This document shows, in pieces, positions 1,615 to 50,981 of a stretch of DNA of 64,000 bases. The notes beneath the pieces are model-generated. The model saw only the letters and a program-made list of their open reading frames with translations. It did no database searches and was not told the DNA's origin. Where the stretch lies: the NCBI RefSeq assembly GCF_004138485.1, contig NZ_ML142848.1, forward strand, positions 1-64,000, written 5' to 3'. Position numbers and translations under genes: made by a program. Positions within the stretch are counted from its first letter, which is position 1. Every line of letters starts with the position of its first letter. Source of the stretch: Peristeroidobacter soli. Lineage in GTDB: Bacteria > Pseudomonadota > Gammaproteobacteria > Steroidobacterales > Steroidobacteraceae.

Positions 1615-1644
1615 TTGACCGTCCCGCCCGCGGGTCGGTATCAT
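1615..1644 (+). promoter_or_regulatory. Candidate sigma-70 promoter for the B12 operon
   Basis: TTGACC (1615-1620) and TATCAT (1639-1644) are separated by 18 bases, and initiation would fall just upstream of the plus-strand riboswitch. It diverges from the metE-side promoter, with about 80 bases between the two -35 boxes. Confidence 0.5.
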
Positions 1645-1649
1645 TTTGG

Positions 1650-1860
1650 TCGCTGAGGTGCCGTCCGGGGTCTTCGACCCCGACGGTGAAACGGGAAGCC
1701 AGTGACGTCCATCGAGGGCCATTCTGGCGCTGCCCCCGCAACGGTAAGCGAGTCGATGCGAATCACGATGCCACTGCCCGGCCGCCGGGTGGGAAGGCGA
1801 TTCGAATCCATACTCGCGAGTCCGGAGACCGGCCTCATGCATTGGCACTGATCTGCGGTG
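1650..1860 (+). ncRNA. Cobalamin riboswitch controlling the cobalt/B12 operon
   Basis: The conserved aptamer elements are present in order: GAGGTGCC (1655-1662), GACGGTGAAACGGGAAGCC, the B12 box CGCTGCCCCCGCAACGGTAA, and GAGTCCGGAGACCGGCC (1818-1834). About 105 bases of expression platform follow, with GC-rich inverted segments around 1858-1895, before the cbtB start at 1965. A translational or transcriptional off-switch responding to adenosylcobalamin is expected from the class. It would control cobalt import and cobaltochelatase genes together. Confidence 0.92.
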
Positions 1861-19280: not shown

Positions 19281-19296
19281 GAGGATCGCGGCGCCG

Positions 19297-20070: not shown

Positions 20071-20077
20071 GGACGAC

Positions 20078-21085
20078 TCACCGGGTAACTGTAGTTCGAC
20101 CGTCGGCAACGACACATTCCGACGGCGGATTCTCACCGTTCAGAACAGCAACGACACAGCGCGCGGCAATCATGTTGGTACGGTCCAGACCTTCCCGGGT
20201 CGACGCGCCGGAGTGCGGTTGCGCTATGACATTGGGCAGCGACGCGAGTTCCTGTGTCACGGACTGGTAACCGGAATCGGATTCGCTCATGAACACATCC
20301 AGGCCGGCCCCCGCCAGTCGCTGGTTCTGGAGCGCATTCAACAGATGCCGATCTTCGACCAGGCCGCCCCGCGCCGTGTTGATGACGAACGCGGTCGGCT
20401 TCATCGCGCGAATCGTCTCGTCGCGAATCAGAAAGCGGGTCTGTGGCGTGAGTGGCGCATGCAAGGTCAGGTAATCGCTCTGAGCTAGCACGGCATCGAG
20501 ATCCACATACTCGAAGCCGAGCCGAGCAGCGAGATCCGCATCCTCACGAGGTGCGTGAACCAGCACTTTGCACTCGAACGCGGCGAGACGTTTGACGACG
20601 CTCCGACCGATCCGGCCGAGACCGATGACCCCTACGGTCTTGCGATAGAGGTCCGTGCCCAGCGGAATAGCCCACGAGCCGCGAGCAATACCCGCCTGCC
20701 CTTCGCGGAACCGTCGACCCAACGCGAGCATCATTCCGATGGTTTGGTCGGCGACAGTGGCATCGTTACCGCCGGCAGCAATCGTCGCGACCCGTCCGAG
20801 ATCCCGAATCGCAGCGACATCCACCCGTTCGTAACCGACGCCTCGGCGCGAGACGATCTTCAACTGCGGCAACGCCAGGAGCAACTCGCGAGTCACACGC
20901 GCATGACCGACGATCCAACCCTTCGCGTCCTGCAACCAGTCTCGAAGCGTGGACTCCGGCACGTCGCCGTCCGCCTTACCGGCGGGCAGCTCGGCGATGA
21001 CCACATCGCAGCCGTTGTGACGAAGGTAATCGATGGTGGCTTCGTCGAAGAAGCGCTGAGTCACGACCACCTTGCGCGCGCTCAT
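20078..21085 (-). CDS. D-isomer-specific 2-hydroxyacid dehydrogenase
   Basis: A 335-residue NAD-dependent dehydrogenase of the phosphoglycerate-dehydrogenase fold. The Rossmann motif GVIGLGRIGRSV lies near residue 150. RRGVGYERVDVAA contains the substrate-binding segment, NTARGGLVE gives the catalytic Arg, and QPHSGASTREG supplies the conserved His. It would oxidise or reduce a D-2-hydroxyacid/2-ketoacid made by its neighbours. Its start overlaps the DUF4387 stop by four bases. It has no ACT domain, arguing against serine biosynthesis. Confidence 0.87.
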   Translation of the reverse strand: MSARKVVVTQRFFDEATIDYLRHNGCDVVIAELPAGKADGDVPESTLRDWLQDAKGWIVGHARVTRELLLALPQLKIVSRRGVGYERVDVAAIRDLGRVATIAAGGNDATVADQTIGMMLALGRRFREGQAGIARGSWAIPLGTDLYRKTVGVIGLGRIGRSVVKRLAAFECKVLVHAPREDADLAARLGFEYVDLDAVLAQSDYLTLHAPLTPQTRFLIRDETIRAMKPTAFVINTARGGLVEDRHLLNALQNQRLAGAGLDVFMSESDSGYQSVTQELASLPNVIAQPHSGASTREGLDRTNMIAARCVVAVLNGENPPSECVVADGRTTVTR

Positions 21086-21399
21086 GCCCTGTCGTCCAAC
21101 TCGACGTCCAGCAGTCGCACGAACTGTTGTCCGCAATGCATGTCGCGCTCGACCTCGCCGCCTTGCACGTTGGTGCGGGCGTACGAGATCTTCACCATGT
21201 GCAGCTTCGGCACCGGATAACGTTTGACCAGGCGCGGATCGGCGCCATACAGGCGCTGAAACAGCTCCGGACCCAGCACCGGCGACTCGCCATAACGCCT
21301 GAAGCTCGCGTCGCCGTCGAAGAACAGATCGATGGTGACCCAGAACGGCCCGGCGTTCTTGGAACGGATGTGATGACAAACCTGTCTGAGCGTGGTCAT
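21082..21399 (-). CDS. DUF4387 family protein
   Basis: A 105-residue protein recognised as DUF4387 from HHIRSKNAGPFWVTIDLFF, the YGADPRLVKRYPVP middle and the C-terminal HCGQQFVRLLDVEL. This family nearly always travels with AtuA/DUF1446 proteins and is sometimes fused to them, so it is probably the second subunit of an enzyme acting on an acyl or carboxylic substrate. It is coupled on both sides by four-base overlaps. Molecular activity is unknown. Confidence 0.82.
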   Translation of the reverse strand: MTTLRQVCHHIRSKNAGPFWVTIDLFFDGDASFRRYGESPVLGPELFQRLYGADPRLVKRYPVPKLHMVKISYARTNVQGGEVERDMHCGQQFVRLLDVELDDRA

Positions 21400-22805
21400 G
21401 GCGCGCGCTCCTGCCTGGACAGATCGAGCCATTCGGTGCGCACCAGCGCCTGGGGGTCGTCGACTTCGACCACATGATTCAATTTGAATTCGTACACGGG
21501 GCCGCGCTCGATGTCGGCCGGCGAGAACGCGAATCCGTAGCTCGGCAGCTCCTTGTCGAGCTCGATGGGAAAGTGAAAAAAATAGGGATTGCACGCCTTG
21601 GCGATCTGCGTGGCCATCTCCTGCGTATCGGCGGTGGCAACGAACAACACCCCGATCTCACGCGGTGCCGGCGTGCCCGCCGGCGGCTTATCGCCCGACA
21701 CTGCATTCCACCCGTACATGCGCAACGAGATATGAAAGTCGCCGGCGGCCGGACCGATGGTGTCCCTCGTGCGCCGATACAGCCATGCCAGCATCTTGTC
21801 GTGGAACTCATCGACGCGCGTCAGCACGTCGGGATCCTGAATACCGATCAACATGATCGTCTGGTAGCGACCGCGCCCCGCGCCTTCGAGCTTCATGGTG
21901 TACGGTTGCGGCTTCCACACCGATCCGGTGACGCGCACGGCGCGATGATCGATGGCCGTATAGTCGGCCTCGGTCACGTCGAGCGTGCCGCCTGGCTCGG
22001 TCAGCAGGAAAGGATTGCTGTTCTCGTACAGCATATGGGCCGAGACGCTGTGCGGGCTGCATTGATTCTCGAGCGACGGCGGCTCGACCTCGAACCCGTT
22101 GCGATCGATGCTGATCAGCACGCCCGCGCTGGCGAGACGATTCACTGCGCATTGACCGCCACACTCGGCCACCTTGGCGGCGTGCCATGCCGGACCGGGC
22201 GGCGCGCCTTTCCACAGCGCGTACGAAGCGATGACGGCAGTATCGGTCGTGCGTCCACCGATGATGATGTCCGCGCCCGCTTGCAACGCTGCGATGTAAG
22301 GTTCGGCGCCCATCACCGCGACGATGTGATCGCAGGAATCGATCGTCGCGTCATCCAGCGCGCCGAGCGGCGGCAACGCACGCACCTTTCCCAACGCATT
22401 GCGAGCCTTGAGCGTCGCCTTGTCGATCTCTGAATAAAGGATAGCGATGCGCGGCTTGATGCCCAACTCCGCGGCGACTTCGAGAGCGATCTCCTTGGTC
22501 CAATCGACGTTGGCATCGCCGCCCGCCTGGCCGGCACTGCCGATGATCAAGGGAATGCGCGCGTCCGACGCCGCCTTCATCAACACCGTCAGATCCCGCT
22601 TGACCGAGCCTCGATTGTTCTTAGAGATCCCCAGCGCGAGATACGCGGCGCCGCTATCGGTCGACCCCGCGTCGGTGGCAATCGCGTGCATGCCGCGAGC
22701 CATGGCATAGCGAATCTCTTCCTCGCGCGCCCCCGCACCCAGCGATCCCGTGGGCACGAGTATCCGGATCGGACCCGCAAACGTTTCTGTGGTCTCAATA
22801 CGCAT
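21396..22805 (-). CDS. AtuA-like (DUF1446) acyl/carboxylate catabolic protein
   Basis: A 469-residue DUF1446/AtuA-like protein. Recognised by ILVPTGSLGAGAREEEI at the N-terminus, AIATDAGSTDSG, GGRTTDTAVIASYALWKG and the C-terminal YEFKLNHVV. AtuA acts in acyclic terpene/citronellol degradation in pseudomonads, while other members occur with citrate-type transporters; the reaction is not established. It is coupled to DUF4387 and overlaps the TonB receptor stop by one base. In this locus it probably acts on the same imported acid as LeuCD and the aldolase. Confidence 0.82.
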   Translation of the reverse strand: MRIETTETFAGPIRILVPTGSLGAGAREEEIRYAMARGMHAIATDAGSTDSGAAYLALGISKNNRGSVKRDLTVLMKAASDARIPLIIGSAGQAGGDANVDWTKEIALEVAAELGIKPRIAILYSEIDKATLKARNALGKVRALPPLGALDDATIDSCDHIVAVMGAEPYIAALQAGADIIIGGRTTDTAVIASYALWKGAPPGPAWHAAKVAECGGQCAVNRLASAGVLISIDRNGFEVEPPSLENQCSPHSVSAHMLYENSNPFLLTEPGGTLDVTEADYTAIDHRAVRVTGSVWKPQPYTMKLEGAGRGRYQTIMLIGIQDPDVLTRVDEFHDKMLAWLYRRTRDTIGPAAGDFHISLRMYGWNAVSGDKPPAGTPAPREIGVLFVATADTQEMATQIAKACNPYFFHFPIELDKELPSYGFAFSPADIERGPVYEFKLNHVVEVDDPQALVRTEWLDLSRQERAP

Positions 22806-24961
22806 CAATAATTCCAATAGAAAGTTGCGCCGTAGGTGCGCGGCGGGTTGTAGGCACCGAAGTTGGCGCCGAGAAACACAGCCTGGAAGGTCCGCGTGAG
22901 CTCATCGGTCAGATTCTTGCCCCACACCGAGACTGCCCATTTGTCGTTGGCGCTCGTGTACACCATGCGAGCGTCCAGGAAGTGCGTCGGTTCGCGAAAC
23001 TCCGGCCCCACATTGGAGTTGTCGTCGAAGATCTTGCTCTCATAGCTGTAGTCGGCCGCGAAACCGAGTGTCGCGCCCTGAGACAACGTCCAGTCATACG
23101 CGGGCGATACGACGAGTTTGTGCTCCGGCGTGCGCGATACACGATTGCCCGCGTAGTTCACTCCGGGCTCCGGCGTGAACTTGTCGAAGGTCGCGTCGGT
23201 GTACGCATAGCTCAACGTCAGACGCGCGCCGTTGAACGGCCGCCAGCGCAGATAGGTTTCGTAACCTTTGATGGTCGCCTCGCCGGCGTTGTCCGTCACG
23301 ATGGCCAGATTGGGCAGCGTGCGGCGCGTCTGCAGGTCGGTGTAGTCCATCCAGAACACGGTGTTGTTCCACACCAGCGAGCCGCCCGCGAAGCTGCTCT
23401 TCTGACCGAGCTCGTACTGCGTGGCGTACTCGGGTTCGAAATCGTCGGCCGCATCGGCCGCCGAGGACGGGTTGTCCTGAAAGCCGCCGCTCTTGAAGCC
23501 GCGCGAAATCATCACGTACAGCAAATGATCGTCGACCGGCGTGAACGACGCGCCGACTCGATAGGTCAACGCGTCGTAACGCTTGCCCACGGTCACATCG
23601 AATCTTTCCTCGGCGCGCACGATGTCGGCGCCCGCCGTGTTGGAGACGCGATAGTCCTTGTCGTCTTGCGAGTAGCGCACGCCGCCCGTGATGGAGAATC
23701 GCTCGGACACGGGCATGCTCACGTCGCCGAACACAGCGTAGCTGTCGAGCGTGGCCCGCTGCGTGTAGGTCTCGTTGAGCGCGTTACCCGCGAGATCCAA
23801 CGCCAGGGTGTCGAGCCGGTCGGTCTCGCTGCCGAAGTTATAAAGACCCGCGACCCACGACACTCGCGAGCCCGCCAGCGAGCTGATCCGGAATTCATTG
23901 CTGTAGAAACTGCTCTGCTCGATATTGCCGCCGGCGATGTCGATGAAGTTGGTGGTCGGATTGCCACCGTCGAAGTCATAGGCCACGTCGTAGTCCAGAT
24001 CGCGATAGGACCCGAGGTAGATCAGCGTCGCGAACGAAGTGTCGTAGTCCACCTGGACGCGCACACCCCAGGTATCGCGGTTCTGATAGCCATCCGTCGA
24101 GCCCGCGGTATGGTCTCTGTCGCGGTCGACGGTCCAGAACATCGCTTCGTCGGCGTCTTGGTCGAGATCGAACACGTGCTGCGCCGGCCCGGTGGCGCGA
24201 TCCCGAGTGCCGTCGAGCGCCAGCGACAGACGCAGCTTGTCGTTGGGTTCGCCGAACAACTGGATTCGCGCACTGGAGGTGTCCTGGTCCTCGACGCGGT
24301 TGCCAGTGAAAGTGTTGCGAACGTAGCCGTCGTGCGTGCGCCAACTGCCGCTGGCACGTAACGCCGCCTTGCCATCGGCGAACGGTGCGTTCACGAAGCC
24401 GGCGCCATCGAGTCTTTGATAATTGCCGGCAGTGAATTCGGCGCCGGCATCGAACGAGGAAACATCGGGGCGGCGGCTGATCACATTGACGGCGCCGCCG
24501 ACCACATTACGACCGTAGAGCGTGCCTTGCGGTCCCTTCAATACTTCGATGCGCTCCACGTCGAAGGCATCGAAGGCCACGGCCGCGGGTCGGCCGAGAT
24601 AGATTTCATCCAGGAACACGGCGGCACTGGGATCGCCGGCAGCGCCGCGATCGTAGGAACCGATGCCACGAATGGCGAGCCGAGGTTGCGAGGCCGGATA
24701 AGCATCCATACTCAACCCCGGCGTGCGAGCGGCGACATCGCCGATCTGTTGCACGCGAGCCTGCCGGACCTGCTCCGCGTCCAGCACGGTCACTGTAATA
24801 GGAACGTCCTGCAGGCGTTCGCCACGCCGTTGGGCGGTGACCAGCACCTCTTCCAAGGCATTCGGCGAGTCGCTCGTCGACTGCGCCCGACTCGGACCCG
24901 CCACCGCAACCATCGCACCCGTCACTCCGCAAACCAGCAGTCCTCGGCCGATTGCACGCAT
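22805..24961 (-). CDS. TonB-dependent outer-membrane receptor
   Basis: A 718-residue receptor with a signal peptide (ending SRAQS) and a TonB-box-like EEVLVTAQRR. The plug domain contains RLAIRGIGSYDRG and VLKGPQGTLYGRNVVGGAVNVIS, and a 22-strand-type barrel ends ...YGATFYWNY with a terminal aromatic. There is no STN signalling domain. It heads the minus-strand catabolic operon (receptor, AtuA-like, DUF4387, dehydrogenase, aldolase, LeuCD) and probably imports the substrate. Its upstream region carries a REP-like palindrome and an AT-rich stretch that may hold the promoter and the GntR site. Confidence 0.9.
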   Translation of the reverse strand: MRAIGRGLLVCGVTGAMVAVAGPSRAQSTSDSPNALEEVLVTAQRRGERLQDVPITVTVLDAEQVRQARVQQIGDVAARTPGLSMDAYPASQPRLAIRGIGSYDRGAAGDPSAAVFLDEIYLGRPAAVAFDAFDVERIEVLKGPQGTLYGRNVVGGAVNVISRRPDVSSFDAGAEFTAGNYQRLDGAGFVNAPFADGKAALRASGSWRTHDGYVRNTFTGNRVEDQDTSSARIQLFGEPNDKLRLSLALDGTRDRATGPAQHVFDLDQDADEAMFWTVDRDRDHTAGSTDGYQNRDTWGVRVQVDYDTSFATLIYLGSYRDLDYDVAYDFDGGNPTTNFIDIAGGNIEQSSFYSNEFRISSLAGSRVSWVAGLYNFGSETDRLDTLALDLAGNALNETYTQRATLDSYAVFGDVSMPVSERFSITGGVRYSQDDKDYRVSNTAGADIVRAEERFDVTVGKRYDALTYRVGASFTPVDDHLLYVMISRGFKSGGFQDNPSSAADAADDFEPEYATQYELGQKSSFAGGSLVWNNTVFWMDYTDLQTRRTLPNLAIVTDNAGEATIKGYETYLRWRPFNGARLTLSYAYTDATFDKFTPEPGVNYAGNRVSRTPEHKLVVSPAYDWTLSQGATLGFAADYSYESKIFDDNSNVGPEFREPTHFLDARMVYTSANDKWAVSVWGKNLTDELTRTFQAVFLGANFGAYNPPRTYGATFYWNY

Positions 24962-38833: not shown

Positions 38834-41156
<2,323 letters not shown>

Positions 41157-41171: not shown

Positions 41172-42080
41172 TCAGGGCATCGGGTACTCGTCGGCGTTTT
41201 TCACCCAGCCCTGCTGCTGTGAAAAGTCGAGCCGCGGCGGCGCGAAGATATCGGCCATGCGATTGCCTTCCGGACCCGGTGCCTGCGCTTCCGAGGTATG
41301 AATGATCCGAGCCGGGATCATGGTCGCCGACGGCGCTCCCACCTGAGCATGCTCATCCTCGCGCCAGTCGCTCTTGTTGGGGCCCCACGGCCAACGCAGG
41401 TGATGCACATAATTGCCCGCGAACACCAGCGAACATTGATCGAAGTCGTAATGGCTGTGCGGCGACATCTTGCTCGCGTCGCGCGCACGGCGGCTGGTGG
41501 GAGGAAAGCTCACCATGATCGTGGTACAGCGCCACATCGGGCCCATCTGTCCCGGCGTTCTCTCTCCTCGTTGCAGTTCATATTGTCGCAGCTTGTAACC
41601 CGCGGGCGGCGCCGGCCAGGGTTGGAAAGGAGGATGCGATGGATCGGGCTGCGCATAGGTCGCGGCGTTCGCGCACTTGGCATTCAAATCCGAGGACTGC
41701 GTCGAGAACAGCCGAACGATGCGCCCGCCTTTGGGCAAGCTGATCTTGCTGTCTCCGGGCGGCACGATGAGCAGCTGATGCCCCTCACCGCGCACTGACT
41801 CGCCGCCCGCCGTAATCTCATAAGGCGTGTCGTCGTCGGGCACGATGATCATGTACTCATCCGCCTGCGCGGTACGCGAGAAGCTCGCGCCCGGATTGGC
41901 TTCGATCCAATGGACGATCAGATTCTGGCTGCGGGTATACCAACCGCGGCCATTGGCATCGTTATCGATCGCGCTGTCCAGGTAGTAACGCCCGTACGAC
42001 GCCGGCATCGCCGTCGTGCCGGACTGCGGATTGCCTTTCGGCGCCGCTAGCGCCGCGCGCGGATCTGACTTTTCGTACAT
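41172..42080 (-). CDS. Bicupin-like protein of unknown function
   Basis: A 302-residue cytoplasmic protein with two cupin-like halves. The first has DEYMIIVPDDDTPYEITAGGE, and the second has MSPHSHYDFDQCSLVFAGNYVHHL, whose histidines form a plausible metal site, followed by ATMIPARIIHTSE. I do not recognise a named family. It is the last gene of the seven-gene LeuCD/M24 operon, four bases after the small-subunit stop. It could be an isomerase, dioxygenase or lyase acting on the pathway product. Confidence 0.65.
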   Translation of the reverse strand: MYEKSDPRAALAAPKGNPQSGTTAMPASYGRYYLDSAIDNDANGRGWYTRSQNLIVHWIEANPGASFSRTAQADEYMIIVPDDDTPYEITAGGESVRGEGHQLLIVPPGDSKISLPKGGRIVRLFSTQSSDLNAKCANAATYAQPDPSHPPFQPWPAPPAGYKLRQYELQRGERTPGQMGPMWRCTTIMVSFPPTSRRARDASKMSPHSHYDFDQCSLVFAGNYVHHLRWPWGPNKSDWREDEHAQVGAPSATMIPARIIHTSEAQAPGPEGNRMADIFAPPRLDFSQQQGWVKNADEYPMP

Positions 42081-42084
42081 ACGG

Positions 42085-42594
42085 TCACCGGGGAGCGGCC
42101 CCTGCTTCGAGCGTCGATTTCAGATAGTTGGCCAGCCCGCCGAGCTGAAGAATTTTTGCCACTGACTCGGGGATGCGTGGAAACTCATAATCGCGGCCTG
42201 AGTGTGAAATCAGGCCGGCGGCGAGGTCGATCGACAGCTCATCGCCCTCCGCGACCGCATCGTACACCGCCGGGCATTCGAAGATGGGCAATCCATCGTT
42301 GATAGCGTTGCGATAGAACGTGCGAGCGAACGACGCCGCCACGACTGCCTTGATGCCGAGCCCCTGGATGGCGGTCGAGGCCTGCTCGCGAGCGCTGCCA
42401 CAGCCAAAGTTGCGACCGGCCACCAGAATATCGAAGCTGCGCAGCCTGGCCGGAAAGCCCTCGCCGAGCATTTCGAAAGCATGCTCGGCGAGCTTCACCG
42501 GATCGATGTAAATCAAATAGCGGCCGGCGATGATGATGTCCGAGTTGACGTTGTCGCCGAACTTATAAATGCGGCCGGTAATCTTGTCTTGCAT
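42085..42594 (-). CDS. LeuD/DmdB-like dehydratase small subunit, canonical
   Basis: A 169-residue small subunit of the short (archaeal-type, DmdB/HacB-like) aconitase-superfamily group. It has the substrate loop GRNFGCGSAREQASTAI, intact with the Ser-Ala-Arg-Glu residues, and ends with the usual C-terminal helix. It lies 21 bases after its large-subunit partner and four bases before the cupin gene. With that partner it should form an active dehydratase/isomerase for a hydroxy-dicarboxylate; dimethylmalate, methylcitrate-like and isopropylmalate-like substrates are all possible. Confidence 0.85.
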   Translation of the reverse strand: MQDKITGRIYKFGDNVNSDIIIAGRYLIYIDPVKLAEHAFEMLGEGFPARLRSFDILVAGRNFGCGSAREQASTAIQGLGIKAVVAASFARTFYRNAINDGLPIFECPAVYDAVAEGDELSIDLAAGLISHSGRDYEFPRIPESVAKILQLGGLANYLKSTLEAGAAPR

Positions 42595-42615
42595 CTCATC
42601 CTCGCTCGGAAAGAC

Positions 42616-43878
42616 TCATCGAAGGAACTCGCGCGGATCGGCGATCGCGCCCTTGAGCGCGGAGGCCGCGAGCGTCGCCGGGCTCGACAGATAGATACTG
42701 CTCTTGTTGCTTCCCATGCGACCGACGAAATTCCGGTTCGCCGTGGACAGCGACACTTCGCCGTCGGCCATGGTGCCACCATCACCCGCGCAGGCACCGC
42801 ACCCCGGGTTCGTCACCAACGCGCCGCTTTCGATCAACGTCGCGAGCACGCCGGTGCGCATCGCTTCCAGCATGATCTCTTTCGATCCGGGCGTGACGAT
42901 CAATCGCACGCGGGGATCGATCTTGCGTCCCGCCAGAATGTCGGCCGCAACCACCAGGTCCTCGTACTTGCCATTGGCGCAGGATCCGAGAAACGCCTGG
43001 TCGATGCGCGTGCCCATCACCTCGGCGACCGGTTTCGTGTTCTCCACCTGATGGGGACACGCGATCATGGGCGTGAGCTTCGCGAGATCGATGTCGATGC
43101 TCTGCTCATACACAGCCTCCGGATCGGCAAACACCGGCTGGTAACTCGCCGGATCCTTCAGACGCGGCAGCAGCCATTCGCTGGTCTTCTCGTCGGGCGG
43201 AATGAACACGCACTTCGAGCCCATCTCCATCGCGAGATTGGCCATGGTCATGCGCTCGGAGACGCTCATCTGGGGCAAGGCGCTGCCGTAGAACTCCACC
43301 GACTTGTATCCACAGCCATCCGCGCCGAGGGTACCGATGAGATACAACATCAGGTCTTTCGCGCTGACGCCGGCGGCAAAGCGGCCGTTCAGTGTCAACT
43401 TGATGGTGGTCGGCACCTTCATCCACAACTTGCCGGTCACCCACACGGAAGCAACTTCGGTGTAGCCAATGCCCGATCCCAGCGCTCCCAGCGCGCCATA
43501 GATCGTGCAGTGAGAGTCTGTGCCGACGATCAGATCCCCGGGCTTGACGTGCCCGTGCTCCATCAGCACCAGATGCGCGATCCCGGCATCGACGTCGTAA
43601 AACTTCTCGATGCCGTACTCCCGCGCAAAGTTGCGCGAAGTCTGCTGGTCGGCGGCGTACTTCTCGGTCTTCGCCGGCGAGATGTGGTCGAGAACGATGG
43701 CGAGCCGGTTGGGATCATACAGCCGCTTCGCGCCGATCTTCTTCATGACACTGACGGAGCGCCACGTTGCCGTGTGGCTCATCACGAGATCGGGATACGC
43801 ATCGACGATCTGTCCCGGCTTGACGCGCTCGAGGCCTGCCTTCGCTGCCAGAATCTTTTCCGCGATCGTCTGACTCAT
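42616..43878 (-). CDS. LeuC/DmdA-like dehydratase large subunit, canonical 4Fe-4S
   Basis: A 420-residue large subunit of the short LeuC/DmdA/HacA type. GTDSHCTIYGALGALGSGIG lies near residue 120. All three [4Fe-4S] cysteines are present: GSCANGKYEDL near residue 293 and GCGAC near residue 352. A strong AAGGAGG ribosome site precedes ATG. It pairs with the following small subunit and is 121 bases after the cluster-less paralogue in the same operon. It likely catalyses reversible dehydration/hydration of an imported or ring-derived acid. Confidence 0.87.
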   Translation of the reverse strand: MSQTIAEKILAAKAGLERVKPGQIVDAYPDLVMSHTATWRSVSVMKKIGAKRLYDPNRLAIVLDHISPAKTEKYAADQQTSRNFAREYGIEKFYDVDAGIAHLVLMEHGHVKPGDLIVGTDSHCTIYGALGALGSGIGYTEVASVWVTGKLWMKVPTTIKLTLNGRFAAGVSAKDLMLYLIGTLGADGCGYKSVEFYGSALPQMSVSERMTMANLAMEMGSKCVFIPPDEKTSEWLLPRLKDPASYQPVFADPEAVYEQSIDIDLAKLTPMIACPHQVENTKPVAEVMGTRIDQAFLGSCANGKYEDLVVAADILAGRKIDPRVRLIVTPGSKEIMLEAMRTGVLATLIESGALVTNPGCGACAGDGGTMADGEVSLSTANRNFVGRMGSNKSSIYLSSPATLAASALKGAIADPREFLR

Positions 43879-43999
43879 CGCTCCTCCTTTCTTACCACCC
43901 AGATCTGGACATTCCTGGCAAAGAATCTGCTGCGGGCATGGTCTGCCGGGCAGCGGGTTTGTCCACGGCAGGGTAGTCGCCCTGTTCGGTTGCGGTTCA

Positions 44000-45274
44000 T
44001 CATCTTAGGGTACGCGGGTCGGTGATTTTGCCGGTGAGCGCCGAAGCTGCCACGGTGAGCGCGGAAGCCAGGAAGTGACGGGCTTTGGGATGGCCGTTAC
44101 GGCCGGGAAAGTTACGGGCCTGCGTCGAGATCATGACCTCGTCCTCCGCCAGCGCGCCCATGTTGAAAGCCTGATTGGAGCCGGCGCTCGGCGGGAAGAT
44201 ATTGGCACCCGCGACATGCAGCGTCTCGAACAAACCTTCCTTGAGTGCGGCAAGATAGATATCGCGCGACGCCGGCACGACCTGCAGACGCACGCCCGGA
44301 TGAACACGCCGATTGGCGAAGCAACGAGCGAGCGTGCGTATGTCGCTCAGCCGTCCGCCAGTGCTGCCGCCCGCCTCCGCCACGTTGATCGGCGTTCCGA
44401 CCGCGACATCGATGGGATGCACATTGCCGACCGTCGGCGGACACGCCACCTGAGGTTCGATCCGGCTGACATCGATATCGACGACCTCGGCATAGCGACA
44501 ATCGGCATCGTTCTGGAAGAGCTCGAACTGCGGAGTGCCCGGCTTGTTCCCAAACAACGCCCGCACGTGACGCAGCGTCTTGTCGTCCGGATTCACGAAG
44601 CCGCATTTGCCGCCCACGTCGATCGCCTGCAACGGGAACAGGGCGCGATCGTTAACGTCCAGCGATTCGATGTAAGGCCCTGCGTACTCCAACGCCTTGT
44701 AGATGGCGCCGTCCTCGCCGAGCTTGCCGACCAGGAACTGCGAGATGTCACGCGGCTGAACGGCCGTCATCGGCGTGCCATGGAAATGAATCTTCACGGT
44801 CTCGGGAACCTTGAACCATCCCTTGTTCTGCGTGAAGCCCAGCGCGGCCATCGAGTTGTTGCCGACACCGGTGCTGAAGGCACCGAGCGCGCCATAGATG
44901 GGTGTGTGCGAATCGCAGCCGATGACGATCATGCCGGGCGTGACCAGCCCCGCCTCCATGACGACGTGATGGATGCTGCCGCAACCGCTGTCGAAGAGAT
45001 TCTTCACGTTGTGTTTGGCCGCGAACCTGCGCACGGCCGCGAGCGCTTCGGCCGCGTCGCGCGTGGCCGGAGCGAAGTTGTGGTCGAAGGCGAAGACCAG
45101 CTTGGACGGGTCGGCGATGCTCGCGCCTTCCATCTCGTTCTCGAACACCTTCATGACGAAGTTGGCGCTCAGATCGTGCATCAACATCAGGTCGATGTCG
45201 GTGAGCACGACGTCGCCAGGCGCTACGCTCTTCTGGCCGCTCTTGCGGGCCAGGATTTTCTCCACCATGTTCAT
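44000..45274 (-). CDS. LeuC-like protein lacking all Fe-S cysteines
   Basis: A 424-residue LeuC/DmdA-family protein. The N-terminal and middle motifs are kept (CDSHTPIYGALGAF at residues 120-133). The three cluster cysteines are not: the GSC(A/T)N position reads GGSTGGRLSD (Ser304), and the GCxxC position reads PSAGSNQ (Ala364, Asn367). Frame and flanking motifs are intact, so this is divergence rather than decay. Without the cluster, aconitase-type dehydration is not expected. The gene overlaps the upstream M24 gene by four bases. The LeuD-like gene at the head of the operon may be its partner. Confidence 0.85.
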   Translation of the reverse strand: MNMVEKILARKSGQKSVAPGDVVLTDIDLMLMHDLSANFVMKVFENEMEGASIADPSKLVFAFDHNFAPATRDAAEALAAVRRFAAKHNVKNLFDSGCGSIHHVVMEAGLVTPGMIVIGCDSHTPIYGALGAFSTGVGNNSMAALGFTQNKGWFKVPETVKIHFHGTPMTAVQPRDISQFLVGKLGEDGAIYKALEYAGPYIESLDVNDRALFPLQAIDVGGKCGFVNPDDKTLRHVRALFGNKPGTPQFELFQNDADCRYAEVVDIDVSRIEPQVACPPTVGNVHPIDVAVGTPINVAEAGGSTGGRLSDIRTLARCFANRRVHPGVRLQVVPASRDIYLAALKEGLFETLHVAGANIFPPSAGSNQAFNMGALAEDEVMISTQARNFPGRNGHPKARHFLASALTVAASALTGKITDPRTLR

Positions 45275-46206
45275 AGCACACGCAGTCCTTCCTGACTCTG
45301 CAGACAGGTATCGCCGTAGTAGAGCTGTCGACCGGCAGCGGGGATCTGCACTTGCAGAGAGACGATCGCGGTGGCCGCGGTATCCTCGAGGCTCTCCCAC
45401 GAGTAAGGCCCTGAAAGGATCTCTCGCAGCTGTGTCTCGCTATCGGGCGAGCTCAGATTCGCGGTCAGCCCCGCGAAGTTGCGAGTGACTTTCGCCCAGT
45501 GGCCGTTGTATTCGATAGCGACCACCACCGAGGAATGCGGACCGATCGGGCGACCTTCCGCCGGAATCGGCGGCCCTTCGCCATCGGACACCAGAATGAC
45601 CACGTCCTCCGCGCCGGCACGACGCAACACGCGTTCGAGCTGCCCGGTGAGCTCGTGGTCGCTCTGTTCCTCGAACGTCGCGATTTCCTGCTCCAGCACC
45701 TCGCGCGCCATCGAAGCGGCGCGCCCATGCATCCGGACTTCGACGTCGGCGGGCGCCGGGTGAATTTCACTGCGAGGCAAATCGATGAGTTCGACCTTGC
45801 CGGCAGTCATCTCGGCATGCAGATCGGTGGGCAAGCCTTCGAGATCGCCTACTCCCACCCGCTTCCAGCCACGCTCTTCGCAGAGCTTGAACAGGGCAGC
45901 CGGCGGGCTCGGGCTTGCGATGATTGTTTCGTGCACAGTCACCGTCTTGATCCACGGATAGACCCGAGGCGACAGCGCGCACAACAAGATGGGCGGCTCC
46001 TCGAGGGGCACGACCACGAAGGCCCGATTCCAATACGGCATGTAGTTCGACACGTAGCGCGCGTCGTTCGAGCGCCACACATCGGAGTACACCACAACTG
46101 CATCGACGCGCTTGCTGCGCGCGATCGCACGAATCGAAGCGAGCCGGGCCGCGAGTTCTTCGGGGGGCAGCTCTTTCTTTTCCCAACTGACGAGTCCTCG
46201 TTTCAT
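45271..46206 (-). CDS. M24-fold (creatinase/prolidase-like) protein, shortened, no metal site
   Basis: A 311-residue protein with a creatinase N-terminal domain (RVDAVVVYSDVWRSNDARYVSNY) and a reduced M24 'pita-bread' domain. The first two metal-ligand aspartates of active M24 peptidases are replaced by Val and Lys (in VVVAIEYNGHWAKVTR). The segment that carries the GHG-type histidine and a glutamate is missing, while the end YYGDTCLQSQEGLRVL resembles a family C-terminus with Glu changed to Gly. It overlaps the second M24 gene and the LeuC-like gene by four bases each. It may form a heterodimer with the next protein. Confidence 0.78.
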   Translation of the reverse strand: MKRGLVSWEKKELPPEELAARLASIRAIARSKRVDAVVVYSDVWRSNDARYVSNYMPYWNRAFVVVPLEEPPILLCALSPRVYPWIKTVTVHETIIASPSPPAALFKLCEERGWKRVGVGDLEGLPTDLHAEMTAGKVELIDLPRSEIHPAPADVEVRMHGRAASMAREVLEQEIATFEEQSDHELTGQLERVLRRAGAEDVVILVSDGEGPPIPAEGRPIGPHSSVVVAIEYNGHWAKVTRNFAGLTANLSSPDSETQLREILSGPYSWESLEDTAATAIVSLQVQIPAAGRQLYYGDTCLQSQEGLRVL

Positions 46207-47306
46207 GCCTGGAACAGCCTCTTTTCGGTCTGACTCAGCGACACGCACCCCGTTTCTGTCACCAGCAGCGTGTCACCGAACACCATGTATCCCGACAGCG
46301 GCAGATAGGTGTTGGGGTGACAGATGATCACCATGTCCTTCTTGCAGGTGTAATGCGTGCTTTCGAGAACGTGCGGCAACTCATCGGGATACAGCCCCAG
46401 GTTGTGACCTCGCACGCGCGTGTACTTCGAACCGGTGTACTCACCGTAGCCATGTTTGCGGAAGACATCGTTCTGCACGCGAGCCACATCCGAGATATCC
46501 ACCCCGGGGCGCAGTAGGTCCTGCGCGGCTTGTTGTGCCTCGGCAAAAATGGCGTATGACTCCAATTGTTTCTCCGAGGGCGGGCCGATGATGAGCGTGC
46601 GACAGATCTGCGCGTAGTAGCCGTTGATCTGCGGTGTGAGCTCGGTGATCACTGAATCGCCATTGCGGAGCTTGCGAGCGGTAGGCGGTTTCATTGCCGT
46701 CACCTCGATGCCTCCGGAGGCCACCAGCATGAAGTTGTCTTCCGCGCCGTGCGCCTTGACGAAGCCCTCCACTTCCGCGACCAGCTCGTATTCCGTCATC
46801 CCGGCGCGGGCCACGCTCACGAAGTGTTCGTAACCTCGATCGGCCAACCGCGCGGCCTTGCGAATCCACTCGATCTCTTCCTGGGTTTTGACTCGGCGAA
46901 TTTCCTCCACCGCCGCGGTCGCCGACACGGGCGCCGCGCTCGAGCTTTCTTTCACGGCACGTGCGAAACGCGCCTCCATTTGTTCGAGGCCATTGACGGC
47001 GACCACCGCAGAGCCGGCGTCGTGCAACAGCGTCTTCAACCCCTCGACGAGTTTGGGTACATAGGTGACGGAGCCACCCGTCCCCGCCTTCACGGGTTCC
47101 ACATCCCAGGGATGAGTCACGACGGCGCGCACCTCACCCTCTTTGGTCAGCAGCGCGACTGCTTGCGGGCCGGAGAAACATACGCTGACCAGACAGCGGA
47201 AATGGTCCTTGCGCCACGTATCGCCGTAGAACAGCAGCATGTCCCAGCCACGCTGCGCCATCAGATCCAGAAACTCTCGCTTGCGCTCGGGATTCAACTT
47301 CAGCAT
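46203..47306 (-). CDS. M24-fold (creatinase/prolidase-like) protein with altered metal ligands
   Basis: A 367-residue protein with a creatinase N-terminal domain and a full-length M24 domain from about residue 140. Of the five usual metal ligands only His301 (RGHNLG) is kept. The Asp/Asp pair is Glu222 and Gln233 (ITELTPQINGYYAQICR), and the two glutamates read His330 (ICHPNTY) and Gly344 (FGDTLLV). Creatinase shows that the fold can hydrolyse C-N bonds without metal, so a hydrolase or lyase role remains possible. It is coupled to the shorter M24 gene and follows the LeuD-like gene by seven bases. Confidence 0.82.
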   Translation of the reverse strand: MLKLNPERKREFLDLMAQRGWDMLLFYGDTWRKDHFRCLVSVCFSGPQAVALLTKEGEVRAVVTHPWDVEPVKAGTGGSVTYVPKLVEGLKTLLHDAGSAVVAVNGLEQMEARFARAVKESSSAAPVSATAAVEEIRRVKTQEEIEWIRKAARLADRGYEHFVSVARAGMTEYELVAEVEGFVKAHGAEDNFMLVASGGIEVTAMKPPTARKLRNGDSVITELTPQINGYYAQICRTLIIGPPSEKQLESYAIFAEAQQAAQDLLRPGVDISDVARVQNDVFRKHGYGEYTGSKYTRVRGHNLGLYPDELPHVLESTHYTCKKDMVIICHPNTYLPLSGYMVFGDTLLVTETGCVSLSQTEKRLFQA

Positions 47307-47313
47307 GGGTCGT

Positions 47314-47850
47314 TCACCGTGTCGCCGAGCCGGGAAAACTTCCGGACTTCAAGAGCGGAATGAGCCCGCCCGCTTGCAGCATGCCCAGCAGAAACTGCGA
47401 CGGCGGCGCGCCTTGCAGGCGCTTGCCAGTGGTGAGGTTCTCGAGCGTCGCCGCCTTGATGTCGACGCGCACTTCATCGCCGTCGTTGACCAGCGCATGC
47501 ACACCGGTCGCTTCCAGCAGTGGCAAGCCGATCTCCAAACAGTTGCGATAGAACGTACGAGAAAACTGTTCCGCGACGACAGCGCCGATGCCGGTGGCTT
47601 TGAGTGCCTTGGTGGCCAGAGCGCGCCCCGACGAACAGCCGAAGTTGCGACCCGCGACCAGAATGTCGCCCGGCCGGACCTGTTTGGGAAACTCCGGATT
47701 CAGGGTTTCGAGCACGAAGGCCGCCATTTCTTGCGGCGACTTGAACATGACGTGCGTGGGAGTCAGGGCGTCGGTGGGAATATTGTCACCAAACTTCCAG
47801 CACCGCCCTTGAAAGATCCAGTTCGTTGCCAAGCGCCTCTTCCTGTCCAC
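47314..47850 (-). CDS. LeuD-like small subunit with altered substrate loop
   Basis: A 178-residue LeuD/DmdB-type protein and the first gene of the seven-gene operon. It keeps FGDNIPTDAL and VAGRNFGCSSGRALATKAL, but the canonical GS(S/A)RE reads SSGRA, so the conserved glutamate is lost. It is the probable partner of the cysteine-less LeuC-like protein three genes downstream. GTG 47850 is taken as the start; a TTG eight codons in, close behind AGGAAGAGG, is an alternative. The 23-bp palindrome lies 75-97 bases upstream. Confidence 0.8.
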   Translation of the reverse strand: MDRKRRLATNWIFQGRCWKFGDNIPTDALTPTHVMFKSPQEMAAFVLETLNPEFPKQVRPGDILVAGRNFGCSSGRALATKALKATGIGAVVAEQFSRTFYRNCLEIGLPLLEATGVHALVNDGDEVRVDIKAATLENLTTGKRLQGAPPSQFLLGMLQAGGLIPLLKSGSFPGSATR

Positions 47851-48015: not shown

Positions 48016-48042
48016 TGAGCCGTACGGCGATTGAGGGCCTCC
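48016..48042. repeat. REP-like unit, locus B first arm
   Basis: TGAGCCGTACGGCGATTGAGGG is the complement of the REP-like unit. It faces a second copy at 48068-48093, so the two can pair across a 25-base loop. The pair lies between the LysR stop and the operon it is presumed to control. Confidence 0.75.
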
Positions 48043-48067
48043 GTTATTCCTTTCGTACGATCTAAGA

Positions 48068-48093
48068 AGCCCTCAATCGCCGTACGGCTCGGA
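48068..48093. repeat. REP-like unit, locus B second arm
   Basis: Contains CCTCAATCGCCGTACGGCTC, inverted relative to the copy at 48016-48042. It ends about 12 bases from the LysR stop codon. Confidence 0.75.
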
Positions 48094-48104: not shown

Positions 48105-49082
48105 TCAGGATCTCCCGCGTCGGGAGGCCTTTCGCCTCGGAAGCAGTGGATATCCCAGCGTCGGACACAGCGCATAGATTTCCTTCTGCAACACCCGTGC
48201 AAGCTCGGACAGCTGCGCGTCCGCGCGCATTAGAAATCCCATGGGCCGCTCCACCGCCGCCGTCGCCACCTGCGCTCGCTGCGATGGTTTCAACACCACC
48301 TCCAGCAGCTTCCCGGCAATCACCTGATCCTCCACCGAATCCATCGATAGAATGCCGATGAACTCGCTGCCGATAGTTGCGGCGTTCAGATAGATCACCG
48401 AATTGCTGGTGATAGTCGTCGCTCGCGGCTCCACGCCGCGACTGTGCGCGAGCGCGCAAAGCGCGTCGTAATAGGAAAGAACGTCCGCGGAATAGAGCCA
48501 GCAATACTTCGTGAGCTGCTCGATACTCACCGCGCCGACGCTGGCGAGCGGGTGATTCGCATCGACGAACAGCCCGCAGCGATCATGAAACAACGTCTCC
48601 CCCACGAGATCCGGCTTGCCCACGATGGCATCCAGCGGCGCGATAGCGAAATCCAGCTCGCCCAGTTGCAGCGCTGGCACCAGTTCCTCCGCCACGCCAC
48701 TCACCACGCTGAGCCGCACCGAATAGCGGCTTTGCGACAACTTCGCATTCGCCGCCGGAATCACGCGGCCCAGAAACCCCGTGCCACGAGCAACGCCCAC
48801 CGTGACATGGCCGGTGAAGCCGCCGGAAATGGCGGCGCGCTCGTTGTCGAGTTGACGCCATTCGGCAAGCACGCGCTTGCCGCGACGATAGACGGCCTTG
48901 CCGAGCTCCGTCGTCGTCACGCCTTTGGTGCCTCGATAAAGCAGCGGCTCGCCGAAATAGGCCTCCAACTGATGGATGCTCTTGCTCAAGCCAGGCTGCG
49001 ACAGGCTGAGACTCTCGGCCGCCTTGCCGAAGCTGCCCCCCTCGACCACGGCGATGAAACGTTTGAGCTGTGCGAAATCCAT
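48105..49082 (-). CDS. LysR-family transcriptional regulator
   Basis: A 325-residue LysR regulator. The N-terminal helix-turn-helix is clear (MDFAQLKRFIAVVEGGSFGKAAESLSLSQPGLSKSIHQLEAYFGEPLLYR), followed by a periplasmic-binding-protein-like effector domain from about residue 90. It is divergent from the DUF6282 gene, 101 bases away, and lies upstream of the seven-gene LeuCD/M24 operon on the same strand. It is the natural candidate to bind the 23-bp T-N11-A palindrome at 47925-47947. The inducer is unknown. Confidence 0.9.
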   Translation of the reverse strand: MDFAQLKRFIAVVEGGSFGKAAESLSLSQPGLSKSIHQLEAYFGEPLLYRGTKGVTTTELGKAVYRRGKRVLAEWRQLDNERAAISGGFTGHVTVGVARGTGFLGRVIPAANAKLSQSRYSVRLSVVSGVAEELVPALQLGELDFAIAPLDAIVGKPDLVGETLFHDRCGLFVDANHPLASVGAVSIEQLTKYCWLYSADVLSYYDALCALAHSRGVEPRATTITSNSVIYLNAATIGSEFIGILSMDSVEDQVIAGKLLEVVLKPSQRAQVATAAVERPMGFLMRADAQLSELARVLQKEIYALCPTLGYPLLPRRKASRRGRS

Positions 49083-49183
49083 GAAGTCACATCCTTTGGC
49101 TATGACCTGTATCGGGCGGGCTATTGGACAGTGAGGGGCCAGTCGACCAGAATCGCGCTGGCAGCAGCATGCGAGGGGGAACA

Positions 49184-50116
49184 ATGGCCGCGAACCTCAA
49201 ACCCGACAGCACCGATGAAGCGCTCGAAGAGCGCATCTCGCGCCTGCTCGTGGGCGCCGTGGACATGCATTGTCATTCCGGCCCATCCGTGATGGCCCGT
49301 GACATGAATCACATCGAGGCCATGCAGGAAGCGTCCGCGGCGGGCTTTCGCGCAATGCTGATCAAGGACCACTATTACTCGGCGACCCCCGTCACCGAGA
49401 TGCTCAATCAGACGCACGGACATCTGAAAGTCACGATGTTTTCCGGCGTGCCGCTCAACAATGCGCTGGGCGGCTTCAACAAGCACGCGGTCGATCATGG
49501 CATCGCGCTCGGCGCCAAACTCGTTTGGCTGCCGACTTTCTCCTCGAAGAATCACTGCGAATCCCGCTACGGCATCAGGGCCGGGTTCCCGCACACGAAA
49601 AAGAAGCTGCTGCCGATCGACCAGCTCACGCCGCTCGACGCCAACGGCAACGTCAAGGATGAGGTGAAGGAGATTCTGGATCTGATCGCGCAAAACGACG
49701 TCATCCTGGCCGGCGGTCACTGTCATGTCTCGGAGATCTTCCCGGTGTTCGAGGAGGCGAAGCGGCGCGGCGTGAAGCGGCTGCTGGTCAACCACCCGAG
49801 CTTCATCGTCGATGCCTCGCTCGAGGATGTGAAACAGTTTGTCGCGATGGGGGCCTATATCGAGCATTCGCTATGCATGTTCATTCCGGTTGCCAGAAGA
49901 AAAAGAGATCCGTTTCCGCCCGAGGAGCTGGACCGGTTGATCAAGGCGGGCACGGTGGATCGAACCATCCTCGCTTCGGACCTCGGCCAGCAAGGCGCTG
50001 ATCATCCGGTCGTCGGATTTCGGAACGTGATCAGGATTTGCATGGGGTTGGGGTATTCGGATGAGGACATTCATAAGATGGTGTCGCGCAATCCGGTGGA
50101 GCTGTTGGGGATATAA
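49184..50116 (+). CDS. DUF6282 amidohydrolase-like protein, cytoplasmic
   Basis: A 310-residue metal-dependent-hydrolase-like protein. HxH is in VDMHCHSGPSV (near residue 29), further histidines lie in GGHCHVSE and VNHPSF, and ILASDLGQ gives the distal Asp, the usual amidohydrolase order. I assign it to DUF6282 by resemblance to the second copy at 61093. It has no signal peptide. The start is supported by GAGGGGG six bases upstream. It is divergent from the LysR gene. It may hydrolyse or decarboxylate an aromatic or ring-opened acid; the reaction is unknown. Confidence 0.72.
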   Translation: MAANLKPDSTDEALEERISRLLVGAVDMHCHSGPSVMARDMNHIEAMQEASAAGFRAMLIKDHYYSATPVTEMLNQTHGHLKVTMFSGVPLNNALGGFNKHAVDHGIALGAKLVWLPTFSSKNHCESRYGIRAGFPHTKKKLLPIDQLTPLDANGNVKDEVKEILDLIAQNDVILAGGHCHVSEIFPVFEEAKRRGVKRLLVNHPSFIVDASLEDVKQFVAMGAYIEHSLCMFIPVARRKRDPFPPEELDRLIKAGTVDRTILASDLGQQGADHPVVGFRNVIRICMGLGYSDEDIHKMVSRNPVELLGI

Positions 50117-50180: not shown

Positions 50181-50981
50181 TCAGGTCTCGGGTTTCGCCA
50201 GTTTCCTGAAATGCTCCAACTGCGTCAGCGCCCCCGACCTCAGCAGGCCTTGATCGCTCGCAACCATCAACGCCGTAACCCCAAGGTCGATCATCTTCTT
50301 GGCATCGTCCGAGGCCATATTCTGCGTGACCGCGCACAGGGCCTTGCCACTGTTGAGCACCGCTTTCGCAACGATACGCACAGCCTCTTCCACGCTCGGC
50401 GCAGGGCCGGTCGCATTACTTAGCGACAGGCCGAGATCGCCGCGTCCCAGAAAGAAACCGTCGATGCCCTCGACAGCCACAATCTCATCGATGTGCTCGA
50501 GCGCCTCGCGGTCCTCGATCATCGCAATCACCGTAGTGGTCGCATCCGACGCTGCGTAGTGAGCTTCGAACGACCGGCCGCCGTAGTCACCACCGCGACC
50601 GACACCCGAACCTCGCGTGCCGCCCTTGTAACGGGCCCATGACGCAATGTTTCGAGCCTTCTCCACCGAGGCGACGTGCGGAACCATGACCCCGATAGCT
50701 CCATCGTCCAGCGCGGAGAGGATGCTGTTCGCATCGGGCCGTGCAACGCGCACCAGCCCCGCGGTGTTGAAAGCCCGGGCGCCGAGGAAACCGACCTCGA
50801 GCGATTGCCGTGTCCACGGCGCATGCTCCTCGTCGAGCATGACGAAGTCATAACCCAGCGACCCCAGGATCTCCGTCGAGTGCGACGTGGGCGTTTTGCA
50901 GAACGTGCCGATCAGCAACTCGCGGGCGAGCAGGCGCTTGCGGAAGTCGCGTGGCGCGGGGCGTGGCAGTGAAGACGTCAT
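50181..50981 (-). CDS. HpcH/HpaI-family aldolase
   Basis: A 266-residue class II pyruvate-aldolase-type enzyme. Visible elements are GYDFVMLDEEHAPW near residue 43, LVRVARPDANSIL, the metal-ligand Glu in AMIEDREAL (near residue 153) and Asp in GRGDLGLSL (near residue 180). It would cleave a 4-hydroxy-2-oxo acid into pyruvate or oxaloacetate plus an aldehyde. It is divergent from the BKACE gene; the gap contains a FerC-type operator, so it probably belongs to the ferulate regulon. Confidence 0.87.
   Translation of the reverse strand: MTSSLPRPAPRDFRKRLLARELLIGTFCKTPTSHSTEILGSLGYDFVMLDEEHAPWTRQSLEVGFLGARAFNTAGLVRVARPDANSILSALDDGAIGVMVPHVASVEKARNIASWARYKGGTRGSGVGRGGDYGGRSFEAHYAASDATTTVIAMIEDREALEHIDEIVAVEGIDGFFLGRGDLGLSLSNATGPAPSVEEAVRIVAKAVLNSGKALCAVTQNMASDDAKKMIDLGVTALMVASDQGLLRSGALTQLEHFRKLAKPET

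Follow-up and report, generated by a model that had tools for sequence, protein, structure and literature searches.

The window analysed here is a stretch of 64,000 nucleotides of Peristeroidobacter soli (contig NZ_ML142848.1, positions 1 to 64,000), and at 41172-47850 on its reverse strand it carries seven open reading frames (ORFs) that belong to a recurrent gene set. On sequence evidence, two LeuCD pairs, an M24 protein that has lost its metal site and its truncated partner, in most genomes an OCD-family enzyme and in about half of the loci an MFS transporter are inherited together; one pair (LeuC1-LeuD1) is of the canonical iron-sulphur (Fe-S) type, and the other (LeuC2x-LeuD2x) is cluster-less. 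Our leading interpretation, held tentatively and with somewhat less than even confidence, is that this is a conserved metabolic module, most likely for the catabolism of a nitrogen-containing organic acid, in which LeuC2x-LeuD2x would act as a metal-free eliminase. The ORF map gives seven genes on one strand, in the order that an earlier sequence-only reading of this DNA had given:

47314..47850, reverse strand: LeuD2x small subunit, swivel domain (Pfam Aconitase_C), presumed partner of LeuC2x
46203..47306, reverse strand: M24-fold protein, here M24 (Pfam Peptidase_M24)
45271..46206, reverse strand: short M24-like protein, with a degenerate, truncated M24 domain and a Creatinase_N match of 19.4 bits against a cut-off of 22
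44000..45274, reverse strand: LeuC2x, cluster-less LeuC/HacA-type large subunit (Pfam Aconitase)
42616..43878, reverse strand: LeuC1, canonical LeuC/HacA-type large subunit with three cluster cysteines (Pfam Aconitase)
42085..42594, reverse strand: LeuD1, canonical small subunit, partner of LeuC1 (Pfam Aconitase_C)
41172..42080, reverse strand: cupin-like protein (the name is that of the sequence-only reading), a member of a DUF6282-HpaI-cupin module

Neither Pfam nor NCBIfam has a match for the cupin-like ORF. Alignment with relatives moved the start of the short M24 gene from 46248 to 46206 and that of LeuC2x from 45400 to 45274, and both starts now overlap the preceding stop in the ATGA manner. 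From LeuD2x to the cupin-like gene the intergenic spacing is 7, -4, -4, 121, 21 and 4 bases, so that the earlier description of overlaps or gaps of four to 20 bases mostly holds and fails at the 121 bases between LeuC2x and LeuC1.

The active sites were compared in 14 LeuC1 and 14 LeuC2x sequences (from the window and from loci L012-L024 in our numbering) at 14 large-subunit positions, for which we assume the list and the numbering of mitochondrial aconitase. Aconitase Ser642 and Cys358, Cys421 and Cys424 are named in PMC8184944. All 14 positions, the cluster cysteines included, are intact in 14/14 LeuC1 sequences, and none of the three cysteines is present in any of the 14 full LeuC2x copies compared, which bears out what had been read from the genes at 42616 and 44000. 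Every LeuC2x copy is altered at six of the 14 positions (N258 to L, E262 to D, C358 to S or H, C421 to A or T, C424 to Q or N, the last depending on a gap in the alignment, and N446 to A or S), and every copy retains D100, H101, H147, D165, S166, H167, R447 and R452. LeuD2x keeps D568, S642 and R644 with Gly at position 643 in all 11 sequences examined, and is variable or gapped at the R580 position; LeuD1 has Ala at 643 (10/10 examined). The changes in LeuC2x thus sit on the iron side of the active site and spare the base and the carboxylate-binding residues. Two loci were left out of the comparison, L026, which holds the first 123 residues only, and L025, the only copy with a broken frame. 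Read separately, the pieces of L025 show no cluster cysteines: one frame has Leu, Asp and His at 258, 262 and 358, the other Thr at 421 and Ala at 446. The ratio of nonsynonymous to synonymous substitution rates (dN/dS) between the window and L012 is 0.10 for LeuC2x, which is 89% identical, and 0.06-0.17 across the seven genes, indicating that all seven are under purifying selection.

LeuC1 and LeuC2x both exceed the curated cut-offs of the NCBIfam HacA/LeuC-family models NF001614 and TIGR01343, and automatic annotation would therefore label LeuC2x as an ordinary dehydratase subunit. It is 34-37% identical to HacA/LeuC-type relatives, and its AlphaFold model (mean pLDDT 83) gives a TM score of 0.87 to isopropylmalate (IPM) isomerase 4kp1 and at best 0.56 to aconitase X (AcnX). 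LeuC2x-LeuD2x resembles heterodimers of the HacA/LeuC/DmdA type (IPM isomerase MJ0499, homoaconitase) in fold, in its separate small subunit and in the catalytic Ser and Arg, but differs from them in the missing cluster cysteines, in the replacements of N258 by L, E262 by D and N446 by A or S, and in the change of S643 to G in LeuD2x. AcnX, comprising cis-3-hydroxyproline dehydratase and mevalonate-5-phosphate dehydratase, is another part of the aconitase superfamily that stands outside the canonical cluster scheme, but the HacA/LeuC-type score and the two TM values place LeuC2x outside the AcnX family. Passages of PMC8184944 describe AcnX as having cluster cysteines of its own and insignificant similarity to other superfamily members, with both structurally solved types carrying clusters. 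The pairing of LeuC1 with LeuD1 and of LeuC2x with LeuD2x is presumed from their adjacency in L022-L024 and from loci that hold LeuC1-LeuD1 alone (L049-L053).

Scanning 84,980 species genomes by pattern yielded 15 LeuC2x loci besides that of the window, in Gammaproteobacteria, Acidobacteriota and one Actinophytocola. The set recurs in them whole or in part, which is more than chance would give; the sequence-only reading had suggested such a search of other genomes. Three of these loci (L012, L023, L024) are the same records as three relatives from an earlier homology search and are not independent of it, and four (L015, L018, L025, L026) are cut by contig ends. The order in L014, L016, L017 and L021 is MFS, LeuD2x, OCD, M24, short M24, LeuC2x, and the same core without the leading MFS gene is found in L013, L019 and L020; in L013 the core is followed by TonB, MFS, LeuC1 and LeuD1, in L020 LeuD1-LeuC1 is convergent, and in L019 the contig is cut. 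L022 has OCD, LeuD1, LeuC1, LeuC2x, LeuD2x, short M24, M24 and MFS, with partial versions in L023 and L024. The same content in rearranged order argues for one pathway. A conserved set of Fe-S and cluster-less LeuCD pairs with a metal-less M24 pair had been proposed, and it stands; its membership requires revision, as an OCD/mu-crystallin-family gene (PF02423), present in 13 of the 15 LeuC2x genomes and absent from the window locus, had been missed, and the cupin-like gene, counted as part of the operon, occurs in one of the 15 and belongs with the DUF6282 and HpaI genes. The best solved relatives of the OCD protein are pyrroline-2-carboxylate reductase, alanine dehydrogenase and iminosuccinate reductase; the L013 protein scores 59.8 against the cut-off of 400 of the model NF045512 for the pyrroline/piperideine-2-carboxylate reductase LhpI and so falls outside that family. 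MFS genes are present in seven of the 15 loci. The nearest families are aromatic-acid symporters for the L013 protein (TIGR00895, 310 bits, cut-off 419) and lactate/oxalate carriers for that of L014, also under the curated cut-off, which hints at an organic acid as substrate.

Among the 15 LeuC2x genomes, LeuC1 is found in 13 (E <= 1e-90; missing from those of L019 and L023), OCD in 13 (1e-60; missing from L012 and L025) and M24 in 13 (1e-50; missing from L025 and from L018, where the contig is cut). The background was an acidobacterial phylum sample around the genome of L021, in which LeuC1 (1e-145) occurs in 1/376 and OCD (1e-90) in 1/227, each hit being the centre genome, which was chosen for holding the set; the other genomes give 0/375 and 0/226. 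At these stricter limits the 15 genomes give LeuC1 13 times and OCD 11 times, with two OCD hits partial, and they span several phyla where the background sample is one phylum. LeuC2x proper was found in 1/396 genomes of the acidobacterial sample, the centre genome again, with only four first-look candidates scored for most listed genomes in this and the LeuC1 sample; seven further hits among the 396 proved to have the three cysteines of canonical LeuC and are not counted. Two further samples gave LeuC2x in 1/369 gammaproteobacterial genomes and M24 in 1/398 Pseudomonadota genomes at 1e-70, in both cases the window's own genome. LeuC2x has matches in 491 of 72,556 plasmid records, the best-ranked at 38.6% identity and none reaching 60%.

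In a 39-sequence tree, LeuC1 and LeuC2x are each set apart by a branch (100/99 and 100/100). By eye the two subtrees resemble each other, and in each of them the window, L012 and L013 sit among acidobacterial sequences. The reference sequence L003 is canonical at the cysteines. LeuC1 is on another contig than LeuC2x in five Acidobacteria (L049-L053; contigs of metagenome-assembled genomes, so that the genes may lie near to or far from each other), and the two are found together in the gammaproteobacterial L012, L013, L022, L024 and the window; both seem to have moved into Gammaproteobacteria. The neighbours of LeuC1 in L049, L050 and L052 showed no recurrent partner among the ORFs scanned. In L051 (2865-7408), from the acidobacterial genome of L017, genes for an NMT1-like binding protein, an ABC ATPase, a permease and MmgE/PrpD are divergent from LeuC1-LeuD1.

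For the M24 pair, we take the metal ligands of Pyrococcus prolidase to be D209, D220, H284, E313 and E327. Read by eye from the alignment, M24 has E222, Q233, H301, H330 and G344 at these places, so that one of five is kept (H301) and the D, D, H, E, E set of an M24 metallopeptidase such as prolidase or aminopeptidase P is absent. Across alignment A3, with its 10 sequences, none of the five residues varies, nor do the motifs GAEDNFM, ELTP, QICRT, YTRVRGH and HPNTY, and the same five occur in Neorhizobium galegae L033; M24 is thus a conserved protein with a new residue set in the former metal site. The short protein consists of a creatinase-type N-terminal domain and an M24 domain that lacks much of its length, its model (pLDDT 85) has TM scores of about 0.7 to prolidases and creatinases, and it adjoins M24 wherever the contig extends far enough in the 15 loci. 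The claim that both M24 proteins lack most metal ligands is therefore right for the first, and is superseded by truncation of that very domain for the second, which is probably a partner subunit of M24 and not the second enzyme it had been taken for. Because of this truncation two independent M24 enzymes are disfavoured, and we prefer one enzyme with its partner, that is, a heterodimer with one active site, as we infer from related proteins.

Small-molecule rather than peptide chemistry on the M24 fold has parallels in creatinase (1CHM) and the dimethylsulfoniopropionate lyase DddP, and creatinase needs no metal. DddP retains its metal ligands and forms a homodimer in the way reported for creatinase and prolidases too; in DddP the second subunit comes close to the active site (PMC4108388). 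Unlike those homodimers, M24 would have a truncated paralogue as its presumed partner. The short M24 protein matches three of 72,556 plasmid records, all from Neorhizobium galegae, and two of them were inspected. In strain HAMBI 1141 (L033, 6171-13433) HyuA-HyuB is followed by the same M24-short M24 pair and then by MmgE/PrpD and an ABC transporter, so that HyuAB and MmgE/PrpD take the place of the LeuCD pairs; HyuAB comes closest to caprolactamase (at 496 and 267 bits, against cut-offs of 1000). In strain VafX2 (L032) the pair follows hydantoinase-type genes, with at least M24 annotated in two pieces; HAMBI 1141 has it open. The pair is thus a reusable unit, and its neighbours here may be enzymes that open cyclic amides, in keeping with C-N chemistry. 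No paper on the Neorhizobium cluster was met in the open-licence literature, no search having been aimed at it. A link between that cluster and L051 through MmgE/PrpD and an NMT1-type transporter was rejected, the MmgE/PrpD proteins being 24% identical (E 2e-5) and the binding proteins dissimilar. The acidobacterial genome of L016 has a second M24-short M24 pair (L053, 525-2680); genes for an outer-membrane protein and an NMT1-type binding protein accompany it, and LeuC1-LeuD1 and a UbiD gene lie some 7 kb away.

One parallel is the ectoine/hydroxyectoine cluster eutABC-doeAB, which likewise brings together a dehydratase (EutB), a member of the OCD family (EutC) and an M24 hydrolase that lacks the metal ligands (DoeA), and in which EutABC has been proposed to turn hydroxylated into plain diaminobutyrate intermediates. 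Among the matches listed, EutC is about 29-31% identical to the cluster OCD proteins and DoeA about 24-27% to the cluster M24 proteins. The ectoine cluster differs in having no LeuCD genes and in the residues of its M24 protein, and Rhizobium EutA, EutB and DoeB had no match at E 1e-5 among the ORFs of the window and the 15 loci. M24 scores far under the DoeA models (TIGR02993, 52.0 against 613; NF038259, 57.3 against 575) and matched no creatinase model. A second parallel is cis-3-hydroxyproline catabolism, in which an aconitase-superfamily enzyme, AcnX type I, forms an enamine; this turns into the imine that is taken up by an imine reductase (PMC8184944, PMC5144071).

By analogy with the hydroxyectoine triad and with cis-3-hydroxyproline dehydratase and its imine reductase, an imine-forming scheme can be drawn, each step of which is proposed onto a parts list and a co-inheritance that the comparison establishes. 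LeuC2x-LeuD2x would eliminate water (or an amine) next to a carbon that bears nitrogen, giving an enamine/imine without iron, with a Ser642-type base, carboxylate clamps of the Arg447, Arg452 and Arg644 types and His101/His167-type acids. The OCD enzyme would reduce the imine. M24 and short M24 would hydrolyse a C-N bond, as creatinase or ectoine hydrolase does, and LeuC1-LeuD1, as a conventional Fe-S hydratase/isomerase, would act in this pathway on an unsaturated di- or tricarboxylate. Support for the gene set is good, and its substrate and reactions are our interpretation of it.

Several points weigh against this scheme. Imine-forming dehydration without a cluster is unproven for the aconitase fold, and substrate and activity are assigned by inference. 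LeuC2x may hold a cryptic metal through Asp219, Ser/His304 or Asn367. M24 and DoeA have one of five ligand-position residues in common (Glu), which makes creatinase-like chemistry an analogy only; the creatinase-like label of the sequence-only reading survives at the level of fold, the residues matching neither prolidase nor ectoine hydrolase. In the genome of Actinophytocola, LeuC1-LeuD1 and the broken-frame LeuC2x are present, but M24 and OCD have no match. The window genome has no cluster-type OCD, its five hits reaching at best 30% identity compared with 48-82% among seven cluster OCD proteins and so being rejected as orthologues; L012 has no such OCD either, so the imine step is not universal. 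All 15 LeuC2x loci outside the window genome come from metagenome-assembled genomes.

The main rival, nearly as simple, is amine elimination, in which LeuC2x-LeuD2x would be a C-N lyase releasing an amine or ammonia and giving an unsaturated dicarboxylate that LeuC1-LeuD1 hydrates. This would account for the joint inheritance of two pairs of the same family, and for the loss of the iron side with base and arginines kept, since an ammonium leaving group would need no iron Lewis acid; we know of no precedent in the family, however, and by itself it leaves the OCD gene of 13/15 genomes unexplained. We regard it as unlikely, but as the strongest of the alternatives. Somewhat less probable is an ordinary metal-dependent hydro-lyase in which a different, mononuclear metal occupies the vacated cluster pocket. 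All 14 LeuC2x sequences of alignment A2 share Asp219 and the motifs Gly-Gly-[Ser/His]-x-Gly-Gly-Arg and Gly-Ser-Asn-Gln, and mononuclear iron was once proposed for AcnX type I (PMC5144071), although a later structure showed a cluster (PMC8184944). No recognisable ligand set can be made out, however, with the E262 equivalent shortened to Asp and N258 replaced by Leu.

Slightly more doubtful again is that the cluster makes and exports a small molecule, such as an amino-acid antimetabolite or a metallophore, with the MFS protein as exporter. The OCD protein does match the model of SbnB, of diaminopropionate synthesis, yet at 92 bits against a cut-off of 327, and the TonB receptor in the L013 cluster is nearest to siderophore receptors (161 bits, cut-off 224); the LysR regulator, the catabolic neighbours in the window and the relatives of the L013 and L014 MFS proteins speak against this reading, and no synthase or ligase gene was seen in the core. 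If LeuC2x were a paralogue of LeuC1 with a regulatory or scaffold role and no catalysis, this would fit the lost cofactor ligands, but we consider it improbable in view of its own LeuD2x with Ser642 and Arg644, the substrate arginines and both Asp/His motifs in 14/14 copies, its separation from LeuC1 by contig in five genomes and its dN/dS. A sequencing error or a decaying pseudogene can be discarded, since 14/14 copies and both L025 pieces share the changes, the frames are open and dN/dS is low throughout; nothing in the window suggests it, and the broken frame of L025 is its sole token.

The metal-free scheme would have to differ in the window lineage, whose surroundings include these further genes:

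48105..49184, reverse strand: LysR-type regulator, directly upstream of the operon, adjacent in L012 and L013 too
49124..50116, forward strand: DUF6282 protein, of the same module as the cupin-like protein
50181..50981, reverse strand: HpcH/HpaI-type aldolase, of the same module as the cupin-like protein
40329..41156, forward strand: SDR-type oxidoreductase, with 54% identity to the SDR that lies upstream of the L014 cluster

The DUF6282 and aldolase genes lie just beyond the coordinates that the sequence-only reading gave for the operon. The names LysR-type for 48105-49184 and SDR for 40329..41156 are ones we presume from the look of the sequences, and the SDR is possibly an accessory gene of the cluster. 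The cupin-like gene is shared with L012 and found in none of the other 14 genomes at 1e-20, and was on that count rejected as a core part. Relatives occur in 27 of 72,556 plasmid records (43-49% identity in the 12 matches listed), and in the three inspected, from Microvirga, Parasedimentitalea and Paracoccus, they adjoin DUF6282 and aldolase genes. The alphaproteobacterial plasmid trios L059, L060 and L062 (DUF6282, HpcH/HpaI aldolase, cupin-like) lie beside CoA-transferase, fumarase or dihydroorotate-dehydrogenase-type genes. As the plasmids carry such trios and the window has the DUF6282 and HpaI partners, the window lineage seems to have combined the LeuCD/M24 core with a distinct aldolase module, which perhaps replaces the OCD step: the imine would hydrolyse to a 2-oxo acid, which the HpaI-type aldolase would then split together with the DUF6282 and cupin-like proteins.

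A vanillate O-demethylase (NF047885, 726 against 580 bits) and a p-hydroxycinnamoyl-CoA hydratase/lyase (NF006588, 442 against 276 bits) are encoded near the operon, and the island thus holds lignin-aromatic genes. Over 38834-62082 the aromatic-acid genes around the operon comprise the LigM-type demethylase, the hydroxycinnamoyl-CoA hydratase/lyase, an ADP-forming-type acyl-CoA synthetase and a BKACE-type protein, as well as ORFs at 56585 and 61057 that we take to be aldehyde dehydrogenase-like and a second DUF6282-like protein. At 17237-22817 on the reverse strand, a LeuC with all three cysteines and a LeuD-like ORF look like another catabolic LeuCD cluster, with neighbours that are presumably class II aldolase-like, 2-hydroxyacid dehydrogenase-like and DUF1446/AtuA-like. 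A Skermanella mucosa plasmid (L061, 8679-11269) has two tandem LeuC-type genes and one LeuD; both LeuC have all cysteines and so are not of the cluster-less type. Two divergent cobalamin riboswitches lie at 1278-1509 (reverse) and 1639-1851 (forward; 91 and 112 bits), near ORFs that we assume to be cobalt-chelatase and GTPase genes. Between the LysR stop and LeuD2x a long inverted repeat was seen by eye (48017-48090, reverse strand, arms 48090-48069 and 48038-48017), which the terminator scan did not pick up; promoter and terminator scans gave 2 and 7 sites where 2.0 and 5.5 are expected and are uninformative.

The sequence-only reading knew of no described system with these genes, and we likewise found no description of the gene set, of a heterodimeric M24 protein or of a cluster-less LeuC in the open-licence literature, nor the word DUF6282. 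We judge the proteins to be new enzyme subfamilies of known kinds in an apparently undescribed pathway. We give an even chance to the fuller proposition that LeuC2x-LeuD2x founds an Fe-S-free but active HacA/LeuC branch, acting as a metal-free eliminase, and that its partners in the catabolism of a nitrogenous organic acid are an imine reductase, an Fe-S LeuCD pair and a C-N hydrolase in the form of an M24 heterodimer that lacks the metal. The pathway would have spread between Acidobacteriota and Gammaproteobacteria, and perhaps to Actinomycetota. Because the genes, some of them unlinked, are almost always inherited together, this pathway can be tested directly. The aconitase superfamily is a textbook case of Fe-S Lewis-acid enzymes, and in PMC8184944 each enzyme branch that is named binds a cluster, AcnX among them. 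If the proposition is true, the LeuC2x branch would show how the aconitase scaffold works without iron, and would bear on the proposal, made in the same paper, that the ancestor had none.

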